Shown: positions 22,687 through 55,190 of the stretch, piece by piece | Layout: each line of letters begins with the position of its first letter | How positions within the stretch are numbered: position 1 is the stretch's first letter | From: Acinetobacter sp. YWS30-1 | Lineage (GTDB): Bacteria; Pseudomonadota; Gammaproteobacteria; Pseudomonadales; Moraxellaceae | Direction: 5' to 3' | Assembly: GCF_033558715.1 (NCBI RefSeq) | Contig: NZ_CP114606.1 | Coordinates: 1,612,001 to 1,676,000 of the forward strand | Length of the DNA stretch: 64,000 bases | Notes under the pieces: model-generated | Told to the model about the DNA's origin: nothing | Databases searched by the model: none | What the model saw: only the letters and a program-made list of their open reading frames with translations | Program-made: the position numbers and the translations under genes

Positions 22687-23883
22687 TTATTCAGATGCTG
22701 AAGTATTTTCTTGTTCTTTTTCTTCAGCTTTCGGTTCTTGCATCATCGTGAATTGTGTTGCTTCTCCAGCAGCAGGATTATCCTGGCGGTTGCTTTTCAG
22801 CTTGATCTGTAAACGTAATTCATTAGTCGAATCAGCATTACGTAATGCTTCCTCATAAGAAATCGCACCCTCGTTATACAGGTCAAATAAGGCCTGATCG
22901 AAAGTCTGCATGCCCAGTTCACGAGATTTGCCCATAATGGCCTTCAGCTCATGAAACTCACCTTTTAGAATCAGATCAGAAATCAAAGGTGTATTTAACA
23001 TGATTTCAATTGCAGCCCGACGCCCTTTTCCATCCTGAGTACGAATCAGACGCTGGGAAATAATCGCCTTCATATTCGAAGATAAATCCATTAATAACTG
23101 ATTACGGCGTTCTTCCGGGAAGAAGTTAATAATCCGGTCCAAAGTCTGGTTAGCATTATTGGAATGCAGTGTACCCAGACATAAATGTCCGGTTTCAGCA
23201 AAGGCAATTGCGTGTTCCATGGTTTCGGTATCCCGAATCTCACCGATCAGAATTACATCGGGGGCCTGACGCAAGGTATTTTTCAGCGCATTGTGCCAGG
23301 AATGGCAATCGACTCCAACTTCACGGTGAGTAATCATGGATTTCTTGTGTTTATGTACATATTCCACCGGATCTTCCACGGTAATGATATGCCCCGCCGA
23401 ATTTTCATTGCGGTAGTCAATCATCGCTGCCAGAGAGGTCGATTTACCTGAACCCGTTCCTCCTACAACCAGTACCAGACCGCGTTTTTCCATAATCACG
23501 TGTTTCAATGATTCTGGTAATTTCAGTTTCTGGAAATTTGGAATTTCTGCGGTAATGGTCCGGATTACCATCCCGACCTGAAGCTGTTGTACGAAAACAT
23601 TTACCCGGAAGCGCGATACGCCCGGCACGGTAATCGCGAAGTTACATTCCAGTTCAGCTTCAAACTCTTGACGCTGTTTGTCATTCATCAAGCTATAAGC
23701 AAACAGTTTGGTTTTTTCAGCAGTTAAGGTCTGTTGTCCAAAGGGCTTCATTAAGCCCTGATGTTTAATACTCGGTGGAAAATCTGCGGTAATAAATAAG
23801 TCTGAGCCCCCATATTCCACTACTTTGGTCAGCATGTGATGCATGAATTTTTTTGCTTCGTCCAACAGTTCTGCCGTGAACAT
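22687..23883 (-). CDS. pilU: PilU-type twitching motility ATPase, copy 1
   Basis: A 398-aa hexameric ATPase of the PilT/PilU family that assists pilus retraction at the base of type IV pili. Walker A is GGTGSGKST, the Asp box RFRVNVFVQ lies before it, Walker B is DVILIGEIRDTETMEHAIAFAETGH, and the PilU-specific tail SRELGMQTFDQALFDLYNEGAISYEEALRNADS follows. AGGGGA lies 5 nt before the ATG at 23883; the frame opens from a GTG at 23904. A close paralogue lies directly upstream (24287-25465). Both are PilU-like rather than a pilT-pilU pair, which is unusual. The C-terminal 30 residues are Glu/Gln-rich. Confidence 0.88.
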   Translation of the reverse strand: MFTAELLDEAKKFMHHMLTKVVEYGGSDLFITADFPPSIKHQGLMKPFGQQTLTAEKTKLFAYSLMNDKQRQEFEAELECNFAITVPGVSRFRVNVFVQQLQVGMVIRTITAEIPNFQKLKLPESLKHVIMEKRGLVLVVGGTGSGKSTSLAAMIDYRNENSAGHIITVEDPVEYVHKHKKSMITHREVGVDCHSWHNALKNTLRQAPDVILIGEIRDTETMEHAIAFAETGHLCLGTLHSNNANQTLDRIINFFPEERRNQLLMDLSSNMKAIISQRLIRTQDGKGRRAAIEIMLNTPLISDLILKGEFHELKAIMGKSRELGMQTFDQALFDLYNEGAISYEEALRNADSTNELRLQIKLKSNRQDNPAAGEATQFTMMQEPKAEEKEQENTSASE

Positions 23884-24286
23884 TCTCTTCCCCTGGAAAT
23901 ACACAATTACATGAATTTAAATGCTTGATTCATGCCAATATCATTTGATTTTTATTGTGCAGCGTTTTTTTTAAAGCCTCAAATAGATTTGATTTATAAA
24001 GAAAATATTTTTGGAATATTATGTGATGAAGTTCAACAAAATATTAATTAAGTAGATATAAATTGCCTTTTAAAAACTATTGCATTTTAAAAGAATATTA
24101 CGATGAAAAAGATCATATTCAGGATATAAATGCAGACAGGGTTAAATTAAATTCGTCAGGCAAGTAAGGATAGAATTGAATATCTAGATAGGTGGCTGAA
24201 AGCTGCCTTGCTTAAAAGCCACCATTAAAGAAGATTTATGACTCAGTTCTATTGAGCTGAATAGTAATCTGTTTATTAAAAAAAGA
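23884..24286. other. intergenic region between the two pilU-like genes
   Basis: 403 bp, AT-rich, no gene. It contains an inverted repeat GGTGGCT (24191-24197) / AGCCACC (24217-24223), 64-96 bp beyond the stop of copy 2, without a U-run, so it is only a weak terminator candidate. The length suggests copy 1 has its own promoter. Confidence 0.4.
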
Positions 24287-25465
24287 TTAATCAGGAGAAA
24301 GTACACGCGATCCGGACTGTTCCAGAAGTGAAATCTGTGCATTTTCTGCCTGTAAAACAGGATTAATACGACTGCTCTTCAGCTTGATTTGCAAACGTAA
24401 TTCATTGCTGGAGTCTGCATTATGCAAGGCTTCTTCATAAGAAATAATGCCTTGGTTATATAAATCAAATAATGCCTGATCAAAGGTTTGCATGCCCAGT
24501 TCCCGCGAACGAGCCATAATCGTTTTAAGTTCATGGAATTCACCTTTACGAATCAGGTCAGAAACTAAAGGGGTATTTTGCAGAATTTCTACCGCAGCCC
24601 GACGACCTTTACCATCTTCAGTGCGAATTAGCCGCTGAGAAATCACGGCTTTGATATTAGCTGATAAATCTAGCAGTAACTGATTACGGCGTTCTTCTGG
24701 AAAGAAGTTAATAATCCGGTCCAGTGCCTGATCGGCATTATTAGAATGGAGTGTTGCAAGACATAAATGGCCAGATTCAGCAAAGGCAATTGCATGCTCC
24801 ATACTGTCTGTATCGCGGATTTCACCAATCACGATGACGTCAGGTGCCTGCCGCATGGTATTAATCAGTGCATTGTGCCAGGAAACACAATCCACACCAA
24901 TTTCCCGCTGGGTAATCATCGACTTTTTATGCTGATAGACATATTCCACCGGATCTTCGATCGTAATAATATGCCCCTCAGTATGCGTATTACGGTAATC
25001 AATCATGGCTGCCAACGTAGTTGATTTTCCGACACCCGTTGCACCAACTACCAGCACCAGACCACGTTTCTGCATAATGACCTGTTGCAATGAAGCTGGT
25101 AAGCCTAGTTGCTCAAAGCTGGGAATATCTGTCGTAATGATTCGAATCACCATGCCTACATTGTGCTGTTGCTGAAAGACATTAACCCGGAAGCGCGACA
25201 CGCCCGGGATGCTAATACTAAAATTGCATTCCATCACCGATTCAAATTCCTGAATCTGTCGCTCATTCATCAAGGCATAAGCAAACAAACGGGTCTTATC
25301 GGCTGTAAGTTTCTGCTGGCCGAACGGTTTCATTAACCCCTGCTGTTTGATACTAGGCGGGAAATCAGCTGTGATAAAAAGATCGGAACCACCATATTCC
25401 ACGACTTTGGTCAGCATATGGTGCATAAATTTACGTGCTTCATCGAGTAATTCAGTTGTATACAT
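24287..25465 (-). CDS. PilU-type twitching motility ATPase, copy 2
   Basis: A 392-aa paralogue of the preceding gene, colinear with it over almost the whole length: ELLDEARKFMHHMLTKVVEYGG near the start, Walker A GATGVGKST, Walker B DVIVIGEIRDTDSMEHAIAFAESGH, and SRELGMQTFDQALFDLYNQGIISYEEALHNADS. The C-termini diverge. The ATG at 25465 has GGGAAG 6 nt upstream; an ATG at 25492 has no such site. No insertion or stop breaks it, so both copies look functional. The canonical pilT is not adjacent. It may be a specialised retraction accessory or a recent duplication that has begun to diverge. Confidence 0.87.
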   Translation of the reverse strand: MYTTELLDEARKFMHHMLTKVVEYGGSDLFITADFPPSIKQQGLMKPFGQQKLTADKTRLFAYALMNERQIQEFESVMECNFSISIPGVSRFRVNVFQQQHNVGMVIRIITTDIPSFEQLGLPASLQQVIMQKRGLVLVVGATGVGKSTTLAAMIDYRNTHTEGHIITIEDPVEYVYQHKKSMITQREIGVDCVSWHNALINTMRQAPDVIVIGEIRDTDSMEHAIAFAESGHLCLATLHSNNADQALDRIINFFPEERRNQLLLDLSANIKAVISQRLIRTEDGKGRRAAVEILQNTPLVSDLIRKGEFHELKTIMARSRELGMQTFDQALFDLYNQGIISYEEALHNADSSNELRLQIKLKSSRINPVLQAENAQISLLEQSGSRVLSPD

Positions 25466-25703
25466 AGCAAGCTTCCCGGGATCATTACTCATCCGCTGTT
25501 TAAAAACAGTATCAGGCTGACCTCTAATAAATTATTGTTATTGTTTATTTTTTATGAATTTTTTAAAATCGTTTTAATACTCATTGTTTTAATTTTCAAA
25601 ATATCGAATTGTTGCTTTCAGCATTTAGAAAAATACTTCTGAACAACCATATCCGATCATAATATCTTTCCTCAACGAATTGAGGAAAGATAAGATCGTG
25701 AGT

Positions 25704-26753
25704 TTAAGCGCTACGCTTTAAACTTTCGCATCGCAGTGAATCAGCCATATTTAACAATAATTGCTCGGTTTTTGTCCAGCCCAGACATCCATCAGTCACT
25801 GACTGGCCGTAAACCATATCTTCAGAGATTTTCTGATTGCCATCGACCAGATGACTTTCGAGCATTACACCCCGCACATTGCTGTGCAAACGTTCAGCGA
25901 CGATTTGCTCCAGCACTTCAGGTTGTAGCATTGGGTTTTTTGAACTATTACCATGACTGCAATCAATAACCAGGGCCGGCAAATCGGTTGAGTGTTTCGC
26001 TTTAATTTTTTCAATTTCAGACAACTGGTAGTTCGGACCACTATTTGAACCACGCAGGATCAAATGTGCTTTTGGATTCCCTTTTGAGCTCAGGATACAC
26101 GGCAGACCCGATTGGCTCATGCCCATGAACTGATGTGGATTGGAAGCTGACTGAATAGCATCAAGAGCAATTTGAATCGAACCATCTGTCCCATTTTTGA
26201 AACCGATGCTGTACGGCATATGGCTGGAAATTTCACGGTGAATTTGTGATTCACTGGTACGCGCGCCAATCGCACCCCAGGCCAATAGATCATCGAAATA
26301 CGCCGTTGCCATTGGACTTAAGATCTCTGAGGCAATCGGCAGGCTCATGCCAATCAGTTTTAGGTACAGTGCACGAGATTTTTCCAGACCCAATTGCATA
26401 TTGGATGAGCCATCGAGTTCTGGGTCATACAGGAAGCCTTTCCAGCCTACAGTAGTACGTGGTTTTTCAATATAGGCCCGCATAACCAGGAAAATTTGAT
26501 CAGAAACCTGTTCCTGAAGCTGTTTTAATTTTTCTGCATATTCCAGTGCGGAAGCTTCATCATGAATGGAACATGGTCCGGTAATCACCATTAAACGGTG
26601 ATCTTTACCCTCTAAAATATTTTGAATAATTTGACGCTGTTCAGCGACTTGTACAGCCAATTGCGGAGACAGTGGCAATTGCTGCTTAAGCTGCTGTGGT
26701 AAAGCTAAAATGGTTTCTGTTTGATGTTGTTGTGATGTATGTGCAATATTCAT
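25704..26753 (-). CDS. 3-deoxy-7-phosphoheptulonate synthase (DAHP synthase), leader-controlled copy
   Basis: A 349-aa class I DAHP synthase that joins erythrose-4-phosphate and phosphoenolpyruvate as the first step of the shikimate pathway. Motifs: GPCSIHD, EKPRTTVGWKG, GARTSESQIHRE, GFKNGTDG and DCSHGNSSKNP, all typical of the AroF/AroG/AroH family. The ATG at 26753 is preceded by AGGA at 9 nt; eight more codons upstream are not family-like. Its 300-nt 5' leader contains an aromatic leader peptide and attenuator (see separate entries), so expression should follow Tyr/Phe/Trp supply. A second, leaderless DAHP synthase is at 54078-55190. Which aromatic acid inhibits the enzyme is not evident. 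Confidence 0.94.
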   Translation of the reverse strand: MNIAHTSQQHQTETILALPQQLKQQLPLSPQLAVQVAEQRQIIQNILEGKDHRLMVITGPCSIHDEASALEYAEKLKQLQEQVSDQIFLVMRAYIEKPRTTVGWKGFLYDPELDGSSNMQLGLEKSRALYLKLIGMSLPIASEILSPMATAYFDDLLAWGAIGARTSESQIHREISSHMPYSIGFKNGTDGSIQIALDAIQSASNPHQFMGMSQSGLPCILSSKGNPKAHLILRGSNSGPNYQLSEIEKIKAKHSTDLPALVIDCSHGNSSKNPMLQPEVLEQIVAERLHSNVRGVMLESHLVDGNQKISEDMVYGQSVTDGCLGWTKTEQLLLNMADSLRCESLKRSA

Positions 26754-26929
26754 GACTTTAAATCCTGGGACTGGCAATCAGTCCAAACTTTTATTTGAGC
26801 GTTATGGGTCTAATCGAAGATGTCGAAAGCGTCATTAGCTGGCTAAAGTAAGACCAATAAAAGTTGCTAAAGTATGAATAGTTAAAGTTTGTCATGGCTG
26901 TCTCCAAAAAATTGTTAAATCACATGCAT

Positions 26930-26960
26930 AAAAAAACCTGATCAGGGTTGCCGATCAGGT
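26930..26960 (-). terminator. attenuator terminator upstream of the DAHP synthase
   Basis: On the minus strand, ACCTGATC and GATCAGGT form a perfect 8-bp stem around the loop GGCAACCCT, followed by seven U. It sits 177 nt before the DAHP synthase start and just after a Tyr/Phe/Trp-rich leader peptide, so it is a premature terminator of that transcript rather than the end of another gene. Confidence 0.88.
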
Positions 26961-27020
26961 ATTAACTGGTGGGCAACCTTTTCATTGCCCAAACGCATTC
27001 AGGCAATTATCTAAACTGCC
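26946..27020 (-). promoter_or_regulatory. alternating GGCAA/TTGCC segments of a transcription attenuator
   Basis: Five short segments on the RNA can pair in two exclusive registers. A = GGCAG (27016-27020, inside the leader's Trp-Gln codons), B = TTGCC (27002-27006), C = GGGCAA (26985-26990), D = GGTTGCC (26972-26978), E = GGCAACC (26946-26952, the terminator loop). A:B with C:D leaves the terminator free. B:C with D:E (6 and 7 bp) traps the 5' arm of the terminator and should allow read-through. A ribosome stalled on the aromatic codons would cover A and favour the second register. Sequences are read directly; the mechanism is inferred by analogy with trp/phe attenuators. Confidence 0.75.
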
Positions 27021-27063
27021 AAAAATAAAAATAAGCGTTTGAAATGATAGGTTGCTTTAACAT
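27007..27063 (-). CDS. aromatic leader peptide for the DAHP synthase gene
   Basis: A short frame reading MLKQPIISNAYFYFWQFR and then TAA. Six of its last eight residues before the final Arg-stop region are Tyr, Phe or Trp (Y-F-Y-F-W-Q-F), far above chance. An in-frame ATG at 27078 would add five residues; GAAAG upstream of the ATG at 27063 supports the shorter form. The stop is followed within 50 nt by the attenuator hairpins, and within 260 nt by the DAHP synthase. This is the arrangement of ribosome-mediated attenuation. Its role is to sense charged tRNA for Tyr, Phe and Trp, not to make a functional protein. Confidence 0.82.
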   Translation of the reverse strand: MLKQPIISNAYFYFWQFR

Positions 27064-27098
27064 GTTTATGTCTTTCATAAAAATGTGAATCTGAAATT

Positions 27099-27127
27099 AA
27101 AATACGCGCTCTATCCAGTTTTGACAA
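27099..27127 (-). promoter_or_regulatory. predicted promoter of the aromatic leader
   Basis: On the minus strand TTGTCA (27122-27127), a 17-bp spacer and TATTTT (27099-27104) give a sigma70-like promoter about 20 bp upstream of the first leader ATG (27078), so the leader transcript would start close to the peptide. Confidence 0.5.
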
Positions 27128-54077: not shown

Positions 54078-55190
54078 ATGATCAAACCAGTGACGGCAAT
54101 GAATACACTACAGTCAAAACCTATTTCAGCATCAGATATTGATGACGTGAATATCCAAAGCATGATTCCTTTGGTAACACCTGCTCAGTTGAAAGCAGAG
54201 TTACCTTTGACTGAAACTGCTTATCAAACCGTACTGCATGGTCGTGAAACGATTCGTAATATCCTGGATGGCAAGGATAAGCGTATTTTTGTAGTGATTG
54301 GTCCATGTTCAATTCATGATCCAGCGGCTGCGCATGAATATGCTGAACGTTTAAAAGCTTTAAGCGAAAAAGTAAAAGATAGCCTGTATATCGTAATGCG
54401 TGTTTATTTTGAAAAACCGCGTACAACTGTAGGCTGGAAAGGTCTGATCAATGACCCTGATATGAATGACTCTTTCAATATTGAGAAAGGTCTGCGTATC
54501 GGTCGTAAACTGTTACTGGAGCTGAATGAACTTGGCCTGCCATGTGCGACAGAAGCACTGGATCCAAACTCTCCACAGTACTATCAAGATCTAATTTCAT
54601 GGTCAGCGATCGGTGCACGTACTACCGAGAGCCAAACTCACCGTGAAATGTCTTCTGGCCTGTCTTCACCAGTCGGCTTCAAAAATGGTACAGACGGCGG
54701 CTTAACTGTTGCGACCAATGCAATGCAATCTGTTAAACATGGTCACAGCTTCTTGGGCCTTAACGATCAAGGTCAGGTTGCAGTGATTCGTACTTCAGGT
54801 AACCCATATGCACACGTGGTTCTACGTGGTGGTAATGGCAAACCTAACTACGATGCAGGTTCAGTTGCAGATGCTGAGGCAGCTCTTGCGAAAGCAAAAG
54901 TCAGTGGCAAGATCATGATTGATGCCAGCCACGCAAACTCAAATAAAGACCCGTACTTACAACCGCTTGTCTTAAAAAATATTACTGAACAAATTCTTGA
55001 TGGAAACAAGTCAATTGTTGGTATTATGGTAGAAAGTCACCTGAAAGGTGGCCGTCAGGATATTCCTGCCAATCTTTGTGATCTGGAATATGGAAAATCA
55101 GTGACTGATGGCTGTATCGATTGGGAGACCACAGAAAAAGTGTTGCTTGACATGCATGAGGCATTGAAGGACGTTTTACCTAATCGTTAA
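54078..55190 (+). CDS. 3-deoxy-7-phosphoheptulonate synthase, second copy
   Basis: A 370-aa class I DAHP synthase with GPCSIHD, YFEKPRTTVGWKG, GARTTESQTHREMSS, GFKNGTDG and IDASHANSNKDP. It is homologous to the leftward copy at 25704-26753 but clearly different in sequence, so the window holds two isoenzymes. An in-frame ATG at 54099 is an alternative start. The 106 bp upstream contain no aromatic-rich leader or attenuator hairpin, so its regulation differs from that of the first copy. A terminator follows. Feedback specificity is not assigned. Confidence 0.93.
   Translation: MIKPVTAMNTLQSKPISASDIDDVNIQSMIPLVTPAQLKAELPLTETAYQTVLHGRETIRNILDGKDKRIFVVIGPCSIHDPAAAHEYAERLKALSEKVKDSLYIVMRVYFEKPRTTVGWKGLINDPDMNDSFNIEKGLRIGRKLLLELNELGLPCATEALDPNSPQYYQDLISWSAIGARTTESQTHREMSSGLSSPVGFKNGTDGGLTVATNAMQSVKHGHSFLGLNDQGQVAVIRTSGNPYAHVVLRGGNGKPNYDAGSVADAEAALAKAKVSGKIMIDASHANSNKDPYLQPLVLKNITEQILDGNKSIVGIMVESHLKGGRQDIPANLCDLEYGKSVTDGCIDWETTEKVLLDMHEALKDVLPNR

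Follow-up and report, generated by a model that had tools for sequence, protein, structure and literature searches.

The trp, phe, and his operons of enterobacteria are governed by ribosome-mediated attenuators, and more than four pairing segments are used in the his attenuator. In all three, a short leader peptide carries codons for the product of the pathway, the RNA can adopt mutually exclusive pairings, and a terminator precedes the first gene; the leader analyzed here is alike on each count. It differs from them in that (i) the gene guarded is that of DAHP synthase, (ii) Tyr, Phe, and Trp codons are mixed in the peptide, (iii) one pairing segment, E, lies in the top of the terminator hairpin, and (iv) a second leader peptide lies past the terminator. 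A leader frame is put to another use in Bacillus subtilis, where the Trp leader peptide rtpLP, in work attributed to Chen and Yanofsky in 2003 and 2004, is said to end just before the Shine-Dalgarno sequence of anti-TRAP; its complete translation reportedly hinders anti-TRAP synthesis, and stalling relieves the hindrance. Passages of two other papers state that transcription and translation of anti-TRAP (AT) both respond to uncharged tRNA-Trp (PMC4027176) and that the transcriptional step of the rtpLP/anti-TRAP operon is a T-box (PMC11255114). Read as we propose below, the Acinetobacter locus would share with rtpLP the tandem sensing of uncharged tRNA, transcriptional and translational, and, if the hairpin described below folds, a leader that ends just before the Shine-Dalgarno sequence of the regulated gene; unlike the B. 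subtilis system, in which the transcriptional step is a T-box and Trp is sensed, both steps here would be leader peptides, and a hairpin would shorten the distance.

Attenuation before a DAHP synthase gene is itself already known: passages of two papers on Corynebacterium glutamicum aroR-aroF report an aromatic leader peptide (Phe-Tyr-Phe) ahead of that gene and attenuation by it (PMC11802643, PMC4046766). The shared feature is the aromatic leader peptide in front of a DAHP synthase gene. In those passages, a single leader peptide is described for the actinobacterial operon, whereas two are found here, and the likeness is one of description. The literature searched held no account of the present leader in Acinetobacter or Pseudomonas, an earlier prediction in older papers being possible, nor, in searches not aimed specifically at tandem leaders, a serial pair of aromatic leader peptides.

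We analyzed a 64 kb stretch of Acinetobacter DNA, hereafter the window. From its sequence and that of related loci, we consider it somewhat more probable than the reverse that two aromatic leader peptides, named L1 and L2, act one after the other to control the DAHP synthase gene. The elements concerned are listed below in the order of transcription.

27099 to 27127, minus strand: promoter-like pair (TTGTCA, 17 nt, TATTTT), found by motif scan and weak by consensus score alone.
27007 to 27063, minus strand: L1 leader peptide, MLKQPIISNAYFYFWQFR and stop (ATG at 27063, stop at 27007), from conservation.
27016 to 27020, minus strand: segment A (GGCAG), overlapping the Trp-Gln codons of L1 and pairing with B.
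26998 to 27006, minus strand: segment B (TTGCCTGAA, core TTGCC at 27002-27006), partner of A or C.
26985 to 26993, minus strand: segment C (TTTGGGCAA, core GGGCAA at 26985-26990), partner of B or D.
26971 to 26978, minus strand: segment D (GGTTGCCC), partner of C or E.
26946 to 26952, minus strand: segment E (GGCAACC), top of the terminator hairpin and partner of D.
26930 to 26960, minus strand: intrinsic terminator, ACCTGATC...GATCAGGT followed by T7, the expected 3' end of a short leader RNA.
26902 to 26905, minus strand: Shine-Dalgarno sequence of L2 (GGAG), from the sequence and from duplex strength across loci.
26791 to 26895, minus strand: L2, second aromatic leader peptide, MTNFNYSYFSNFYWSYFSQLMTLSTSSIRPITLK and stop, 34 codons, from conservation.
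26768 to 26784, minus strand: hairpin GGACTG-ATTGC-CAGTCC between the L2 stop and the Shine-Dalgarno sequence of DAHP synthase, from spacing and shuffles.
25704 to 26753, minus strand: DAHP synthase (3-deoxy-7-phosphoheptulonate synthase), class I aroFGH type, from profile matches.

The enzyme gene matches TIGR00034 with 404 bits and the PRK12755 subfamily with 477 bits, both above the cut-off. L2, which has a good Shine-Dalgarno sequence, starts 34 bases past the T-run of the terminator, and its stop is followed by six bases, the hairpin, the Shine-Dalgarno sequence, and the ATG of DAHP synthase. A second DAHP synthase gene of the window (~54150-55172, plus strand) is 48% identical to the first, and a scripted search ahead of this gene detected neither an aromatic leader nor a terminator, whether in the window or at its counterpart in three relatives (L100-L103). 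A model trained on the Acinetobacter leaders matches one place only in the genome at E<=0.001, i.e., no second copy of the leader was found. At Rfam curated thresholds, the whole window gave no match besides a glycine riboswitch aptamer elsewhere (RF00504, 58592-58679, minus strand, 70.6 bits). Two adjacent, similar ATPase genes occupy 22687-25492 on the minus strand and resemble pilus retraction genes of the PilT/PilU type.

By itself, the aromatic density of L1 is unremarkable; short ATG frames with at least six aromatic residues in ten codons occur at seven sites in the 64 kb window, L1 and L2 included. A Shine-Dalgarno sequence combined with at least five aromatics in ten codons is found in two of the 1057 short ATG frames of the window, and L2 is the richer of the two. 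Promoter-like sites in the region number five, against 2.9 expected from shuffling, and the pair at 27099-27127 is weak when taken alone, while terminator-like sites number two, against 0.3 expected. On the plus strand, the hairpin at 26768-26784 also attains a terminator-like score, perhaps by chance. Conservation rather than density decides the matter: L1, its segments, and the terminator are taken as real because they recur in 97 of 97 loci.

The DAHP synthase gene was found at E<=1e-110 in 169 of 175 genomes of the genus Acinetobacter, and among these 169 we examined the upstream regions of 97 loci, including that of the window (L001), and then of nine more (L134-L142); six others (L094, L095, and L100-L103) were left out of the 97 as belonging to another family or to the second DAHP synthase. 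The core of L1, the segments, and the terminator are present in all 97 loci, the terminator by one pattern in 96 and with a variant 3' arm in L088. Anchored on TGGCA, L1 has a Tyr codon two before Trp in 97/97 loci, and its third codon positions are the most variable (entropy 0.87, versus 0.39 and 0.52 for the first and second). In a 30-locus alignment of the promoter, TTGT is invariant and a GCGTA block near -10 is mostly conserved. One locus, L136, has Trp-Tyr over segment A in place of the usual Trp-Gln or Trp-His, so A:B pairing may be weakened there. The nine later loci all carry L1 and L2, with the terminator recognized by pattern in eight. Among named records, which overlap with the same genomes, both leaders are present in 66 of 75 loci (65 by script, L191 by eye), and the nine without both are all from distant taxa. 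In nine genomes from four other genera of the same family, the best matches to the enzyme were just 46-48% identical, much like the second DAHP synthase of the window.

Pairing statistics were drawn from an alignment of 70 out of 97 distinct sequences. In the terminator-side fold (A:B, C:D, and the terminator), 98.3% of cells are paired, and in the antiterminator-side fold (B:C and D:E), 94.9%, versus 18-55% in slid controls. Individually, A:B is paired in 97.7% of cells, B:C in 95.3%, C:D in 96.9%, the two helix parts of D:E in 92.4 and 99.3%, and the terminator stem in 99.8%. Changes on both sides of a pair are found at 2/18 pairs of the terminator-side fold and 3/15 of the antiterminator-side fold, with two such pairs each in B:C and the terminator stem, and these counts do not exceed those of shuffles. 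Shuffles are exceeded by the number of cells with both-side changes (8 and 12) and by the covariation scores, an outcome that relatedness without structure can also yield. Since most pairs hardly vary, the pairing is supported by conservation more than by covariation.

Much of the initial annotation of this DNA agrees with these data. L1 at 27007-27063, segments A-E, and the terminator at 26930-26960 lie where it had placed them, and the 8-bp outer stem and U-run of the terminator are as it described, with ten pairs counted in our scan. Two exclusive registers before the DAHP synthase gene, which it had also proposed, are both kept in the genus. The promoter pair is likewise present (27127-27099), weak by itself as noted above. 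An alignment of leaders from other Acinetobacter genomes had been suggested as a check, with preserved aromatic codons and compensatory changes as the expected outcome; the aromatic codons and segments are indeed conserved, but pairs changed on both sides are no more numerous than in shuffles. The initial annotation had overlooked L2 and the hairpin that follows it, as well as the relation to Rfam P15 described below.

The initial annotation had further supposed that stalling at the aromatic codons masks segment A, lets B pair with C and D with E, and thereby blocks the terminator. Energies were computed for different ribosome positions on RNA ended at segment E, in 104 of 106 loci (L136 and L141 left out). 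D:E is preferred over C:D by a median of 5.1 kcal/mol when the ribosome stands at Trp, by 3.0 kcal/mol without a ribosome, and by 2.3 kcal/mol with one at the stop. Moving the ribosome from the stop to Trp shifts the balance toward D:E by a median of 3.6 kcal/mol, in the expected direction in 88/104 loci; relative to no ribosome, the shift at Trp is 2.5 kcal/mol, in the expected direction in 68/104. A stall at the first aromatic codon changes little (0.7 versus the stop, in 59/104 loci; 0.0 versus no ribosome), and D:E beats C:D even with the ribosome at the stop in 85/104 loci. For the complete leader RNA of the window, the terminator wins at equilibrium at every ribosome position tried, and equilibrium folding consequently fails as proof of the switch. 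The energies thus move in the direction of the supposed stall logic at the late Trp codon, and not at the first aromatic codon or in the equilibrium fold. Because both the terminator and D:E win at equilibrium, the L1 switch would have to be kinetic, and the energy shifts indicate an anatomy that fits attenuation through the sequence in which the helices form, the late aromatic codons being the effective ones; the calculation is no proof of it. L1 likely behaves like a classical attenuator, its ribosome-driven switch not being evident from equilibrium folding. Sensing of 'total' aromatic supply, which the initial annotation had raised as a possibility, goes beyond these data, and five segments are less unusual than it claimed, given the segment number of the his attenuator.

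L2 is intact in 96 of the 97 Acinetobacter loci; in the exception, L083, the frame is broken while L1, the terminator, and the hairpin are retained. For the frame statistics and the Shine-Dalgarno comparison, L2 starts were trimmed by rule. The 92 distinct L2 frames overlap an open +1 frame in 11 cases and never an open +2 frame. They carry a median of nine aromatic codons (range 5-11) in about 34, with Phe and Tyr in 92/92 and Trp in 90/92, whereas the aromatic share of DAHP synthase itself is 4.6%. L2 is 27-40 aa long in Acinetobacter and up to 59 aa elsewhere, and its C-terminus, RPITLK or alike, is conserved in the genus. Third codon positions in L2 vary little more than first and second ones (entropy 0.76, versus 0.61 and 0.69). 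The last codons of L2 (26791-26811, minus strand; most commonly ACG CTC AAA TAA) are conserved in Acinetobacter at the nucleotide level, third positions included.

Between L2 and the enzyme, most Acinetobacter loci have a gap of 25-45 nt that contains the hairpin. Counted from the first base of the L2 stop, the distance to its stem is 9 nt in 85 of 95 loci, and 13-14 nt separate the stem from the ATG in 73/95; its loop ranges from 3 to 11 nt, and several loci with a different stem sequence still pair. In 82/95 loci, the hairpin is reached by at most 5% of spacer shuffles, and it is the sole pairing above 0.3 that RNAalifold kept in the region in one alignment of 95 sequences. In the same alignment, no conserved pairing was found that holds the Shine-Dalgarno sequence or reaches into L2. 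A translational attenuator of the erm/cat type, in which L2 would refold the RNA, was rejected for lack of conserved pairing between L2 and the enzyme start in that alignment.

The loci that deviate from this layout show where L2 ends in relation to the enzyme. L091 and L092 have stems of four pairs only, and L030 has no hairpin and a gap of just 17 nt. In six divergent Acinetobacter genomes (L093, L138-L142), L2 overlaps the DAHP synthase start by ~25 nt, as established from DNA for four and inferred from translations for L141 and L142. Outside the genus, four of the five loci of family f36 have gaps of -4, 3, 5, and 17 nt without a hairpin; the gap of the fifth (L245) was scored as 44, and an alternative in-frame start there may overlap. 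In L030, the f36 loci, and the six overlapping genomes, the leader thus ends directly before or over the Shine-Dalgarno sequence of the enzyme, whereas in the window and most loci a folded hairpin would be needed to bring the end of L2 near it. On the whole, L2 ends near the enzyme start, with a long gap usually shortened by a hairpin, a geometry to be expected if a leader frame controls translation.

Both leaders extend beyond Acinetobacter. One family is called Pseudomonas-type here because one of its loci has the sRNA PrrF; both leaders also occur in a record assigned to Pseudomonas massiliensis. The order L1-terminator-L2 is present in all of the best 30 matches from 59 Pseudomonas-type genomes, those without this enzyme type not being judged, and in nine of 12 loci from two further families. 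In the Pseudomonas-type loci, L1 mostly reads ...GYWFS..., many L2 frames have RTxx endings, and a candidate hairpin is found in 30/30 with a gap of 36-48 nt. In the GC-rich spacers of this family, the hairpin is often no better than chance, with just 13/30 loci in which at most 5% of shuffles reach it, and by itself it is weak evidence. A frame of the L2 kind, taken without an aromatic threshold, is present outside the genus in 39 of 42 loci, versus 7.9% of randomized upstream regions; with at least four aromatics in the first 30 codons, the figures are 37/42 versus 1.7%, and with at least five, 36/42 versus 0.5%. Two of these frames (L243, L249) have only three aromatics. In family f43, three of seven loci (L238, L242, L244) have L1 and the terminator without L2, which makes them natural cases for comparison, and L239-L241 have a gap of 29 nt in which no hairpin was detected.

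The Rfam family P15 (RF00627) bears on the first half of the leader. It is filed as an sRNA gene, and a passage of one paper counts it among confirmed loci and suggests, from synteny, a possible riboswitch (PMC2527527). P15 is alike in being the Pseudomonas-type counterpart of the L1 attenuator, occupying the same position ahead of a gene of the same kind, and it differs in its filing and in that the Acinetobacter loci lie far below its cut-off. That cut-off, 70 bits, was exceeded by 20/20 Pseudomonas-type loci tested out of the 30, in which the aromatic end of L1 falls within the P15 span and the terminator closes it. Of 244 genomes of the order, 20 have a P15 match (11 above the cut-off; families f21, f43, and f36), compared with 0/14 control genomes, and DAHP synthase lies downstream, with an L1-like frame in front, in 20/20 loci. 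With P15, the window has a match of 20.2 bits at the expected position, well short of the gathering cut-off of 70, and among other loci of the genus, 4/20 score 26-33 bits and 16 have no match at E<=1. In the reverse direction, a model trained on Acinetobacter has matches at E<=1 in 31 of 42 loci from the three families, with 12 of these at E<=0.01, and the matches coincide with P15 in the 21 of 31 loci where its coordinates are known. Such reciprocal matches at the same place make homology of the Acinetobacter leader and P15 very likely. The Acinetobacter L1 leader is, then, a likely homolog of P15, with the same place, gene, and layout, though not a member of the Rfam family by its cut-off, and P15 itself is best interpreted as the leader RNA of a DAHP synthase gene, ended at the terminator.

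From the parts, their conservation, pairings, and geometry, all seen in the sequences, we infer stalling, antitermination, and translation of L2 with its sign, in a mechanism that would run in two steps. (i) Transcription: if the ribosome runs to the L1 stop, it would cover A and B, C would pair with D, and the terminator would form; if it is held late in the aromatic run, chiefly at Trp, B would pair with C and D with E, so that the terminator would be blocked and transcription would read through. (ii) Translation: the read-through RNA would carry L2, whose frame closes at the start of DAHP synthase or close to it, the hairpin shortening a long gap, and ribosomes completing L2 would interfere with, or feed, initiation at the enzyme start. 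If L2 stalls for lack of charged aromatic tRNAs, the interference would be relieved, as in B. subtilis rtpLP; relief seems to us likelier than a lowering of enzyme translation. With an rtpLP-like sign, L2 would be a second starvation-induced step and its aromatic codons would be accounted for. L2 is most likely a second, translational control. We count against the two-leader reading the f43 loci that lack L2, the broken L083, the low-aromatic L243 and L249, and the gap without a hairpin in L239-L241, together with the equilibrium terminator, the missing shift at the first codon, the third positions of L2, and the weak Pseudomonas-type hairpin.

Several features of L2 would also suit a mere coupling frame, from which ribosomes re-initiate at the DAHP synthase start and whose aromatic codons are no sensor. 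Coupled genes usually have a stop and a start that overlap or nearly touch, as L2 and the enzyme do in four of five f36 loci, and the duplex of L2 with the anti-Shine-Dalgarno sequence is stronger than that of DAHP synthase in 82/95 loci and weaker in five. Moreover, two of the three f43 loci without L2 have a strong Shine-Dalgarno sequence of the enzyme's own (-8.2; -5.9 in the third), the medians in L2-bearing loci of other families, those of f43 not included, being -5.6 and -5.4. Simple coupling would, however, mean less DAHP synthase under starvation, and it leaves unexplained both the aromatic richness of L2 relative to the enzyme and the ~25 nt overlap in six genomes. We regard it as unlikely, although deserving of serious attention. 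Were L1 alone to matter, as an ordinary single attenuator with L2 a by-product or in some other role, the loci with L1 and a terminator but no L2 (3/42 outside Acinetobacter) would be natural; that L2 is intact in 96/97 loci, with a conserved start signal, an aromatic core, and a fixed distance to the hairpin, and occurs in other families far above random expectation, renders this improbable.

The conserved C-terminus of L2 in Acinetobacter and the many RTxx endings in Pseudomonas-type loci are what a small working protein acting on DAHP synthase might show, but outside the aromatic core and the last residues its sequence varies widely, as does its length, and we give such a protein very little credence. 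Less credence still goes to the short RNA being a trans-acting sRNA, as the Rfam label of P15 implies, or a riboswitch, as the synteny-based suggestion has it, seeing that P15 includes the aromatic end of L1, stops at the terminator, and is followed by the DAHP synthase gene throughout the order. Serial control by L1 and L2 remains the reading that we prefer for the window. Its extension to the Pseudomonadales, i.e., aromatic leaders in series acting on transcription termination and then on translation initiation, with a distance-shortening hairpin and P15 as the terminated first half, is one on which our judgment is evenly divided.

If true, the locus would be a natural two-stage sensor built from leader peptides only. 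It would sit at the step where aromatic synthesis begins, in a group to which both Acinetobacter and Pseudomonas belong, and supply would be sensed once at transcription and again at translation. P15, so far an Rfam sRNA gene, would gain a concrete and testable reading, and the leader system would offer a simple setting for the question of how stalling in a leader frame controls initiation at the next gene.
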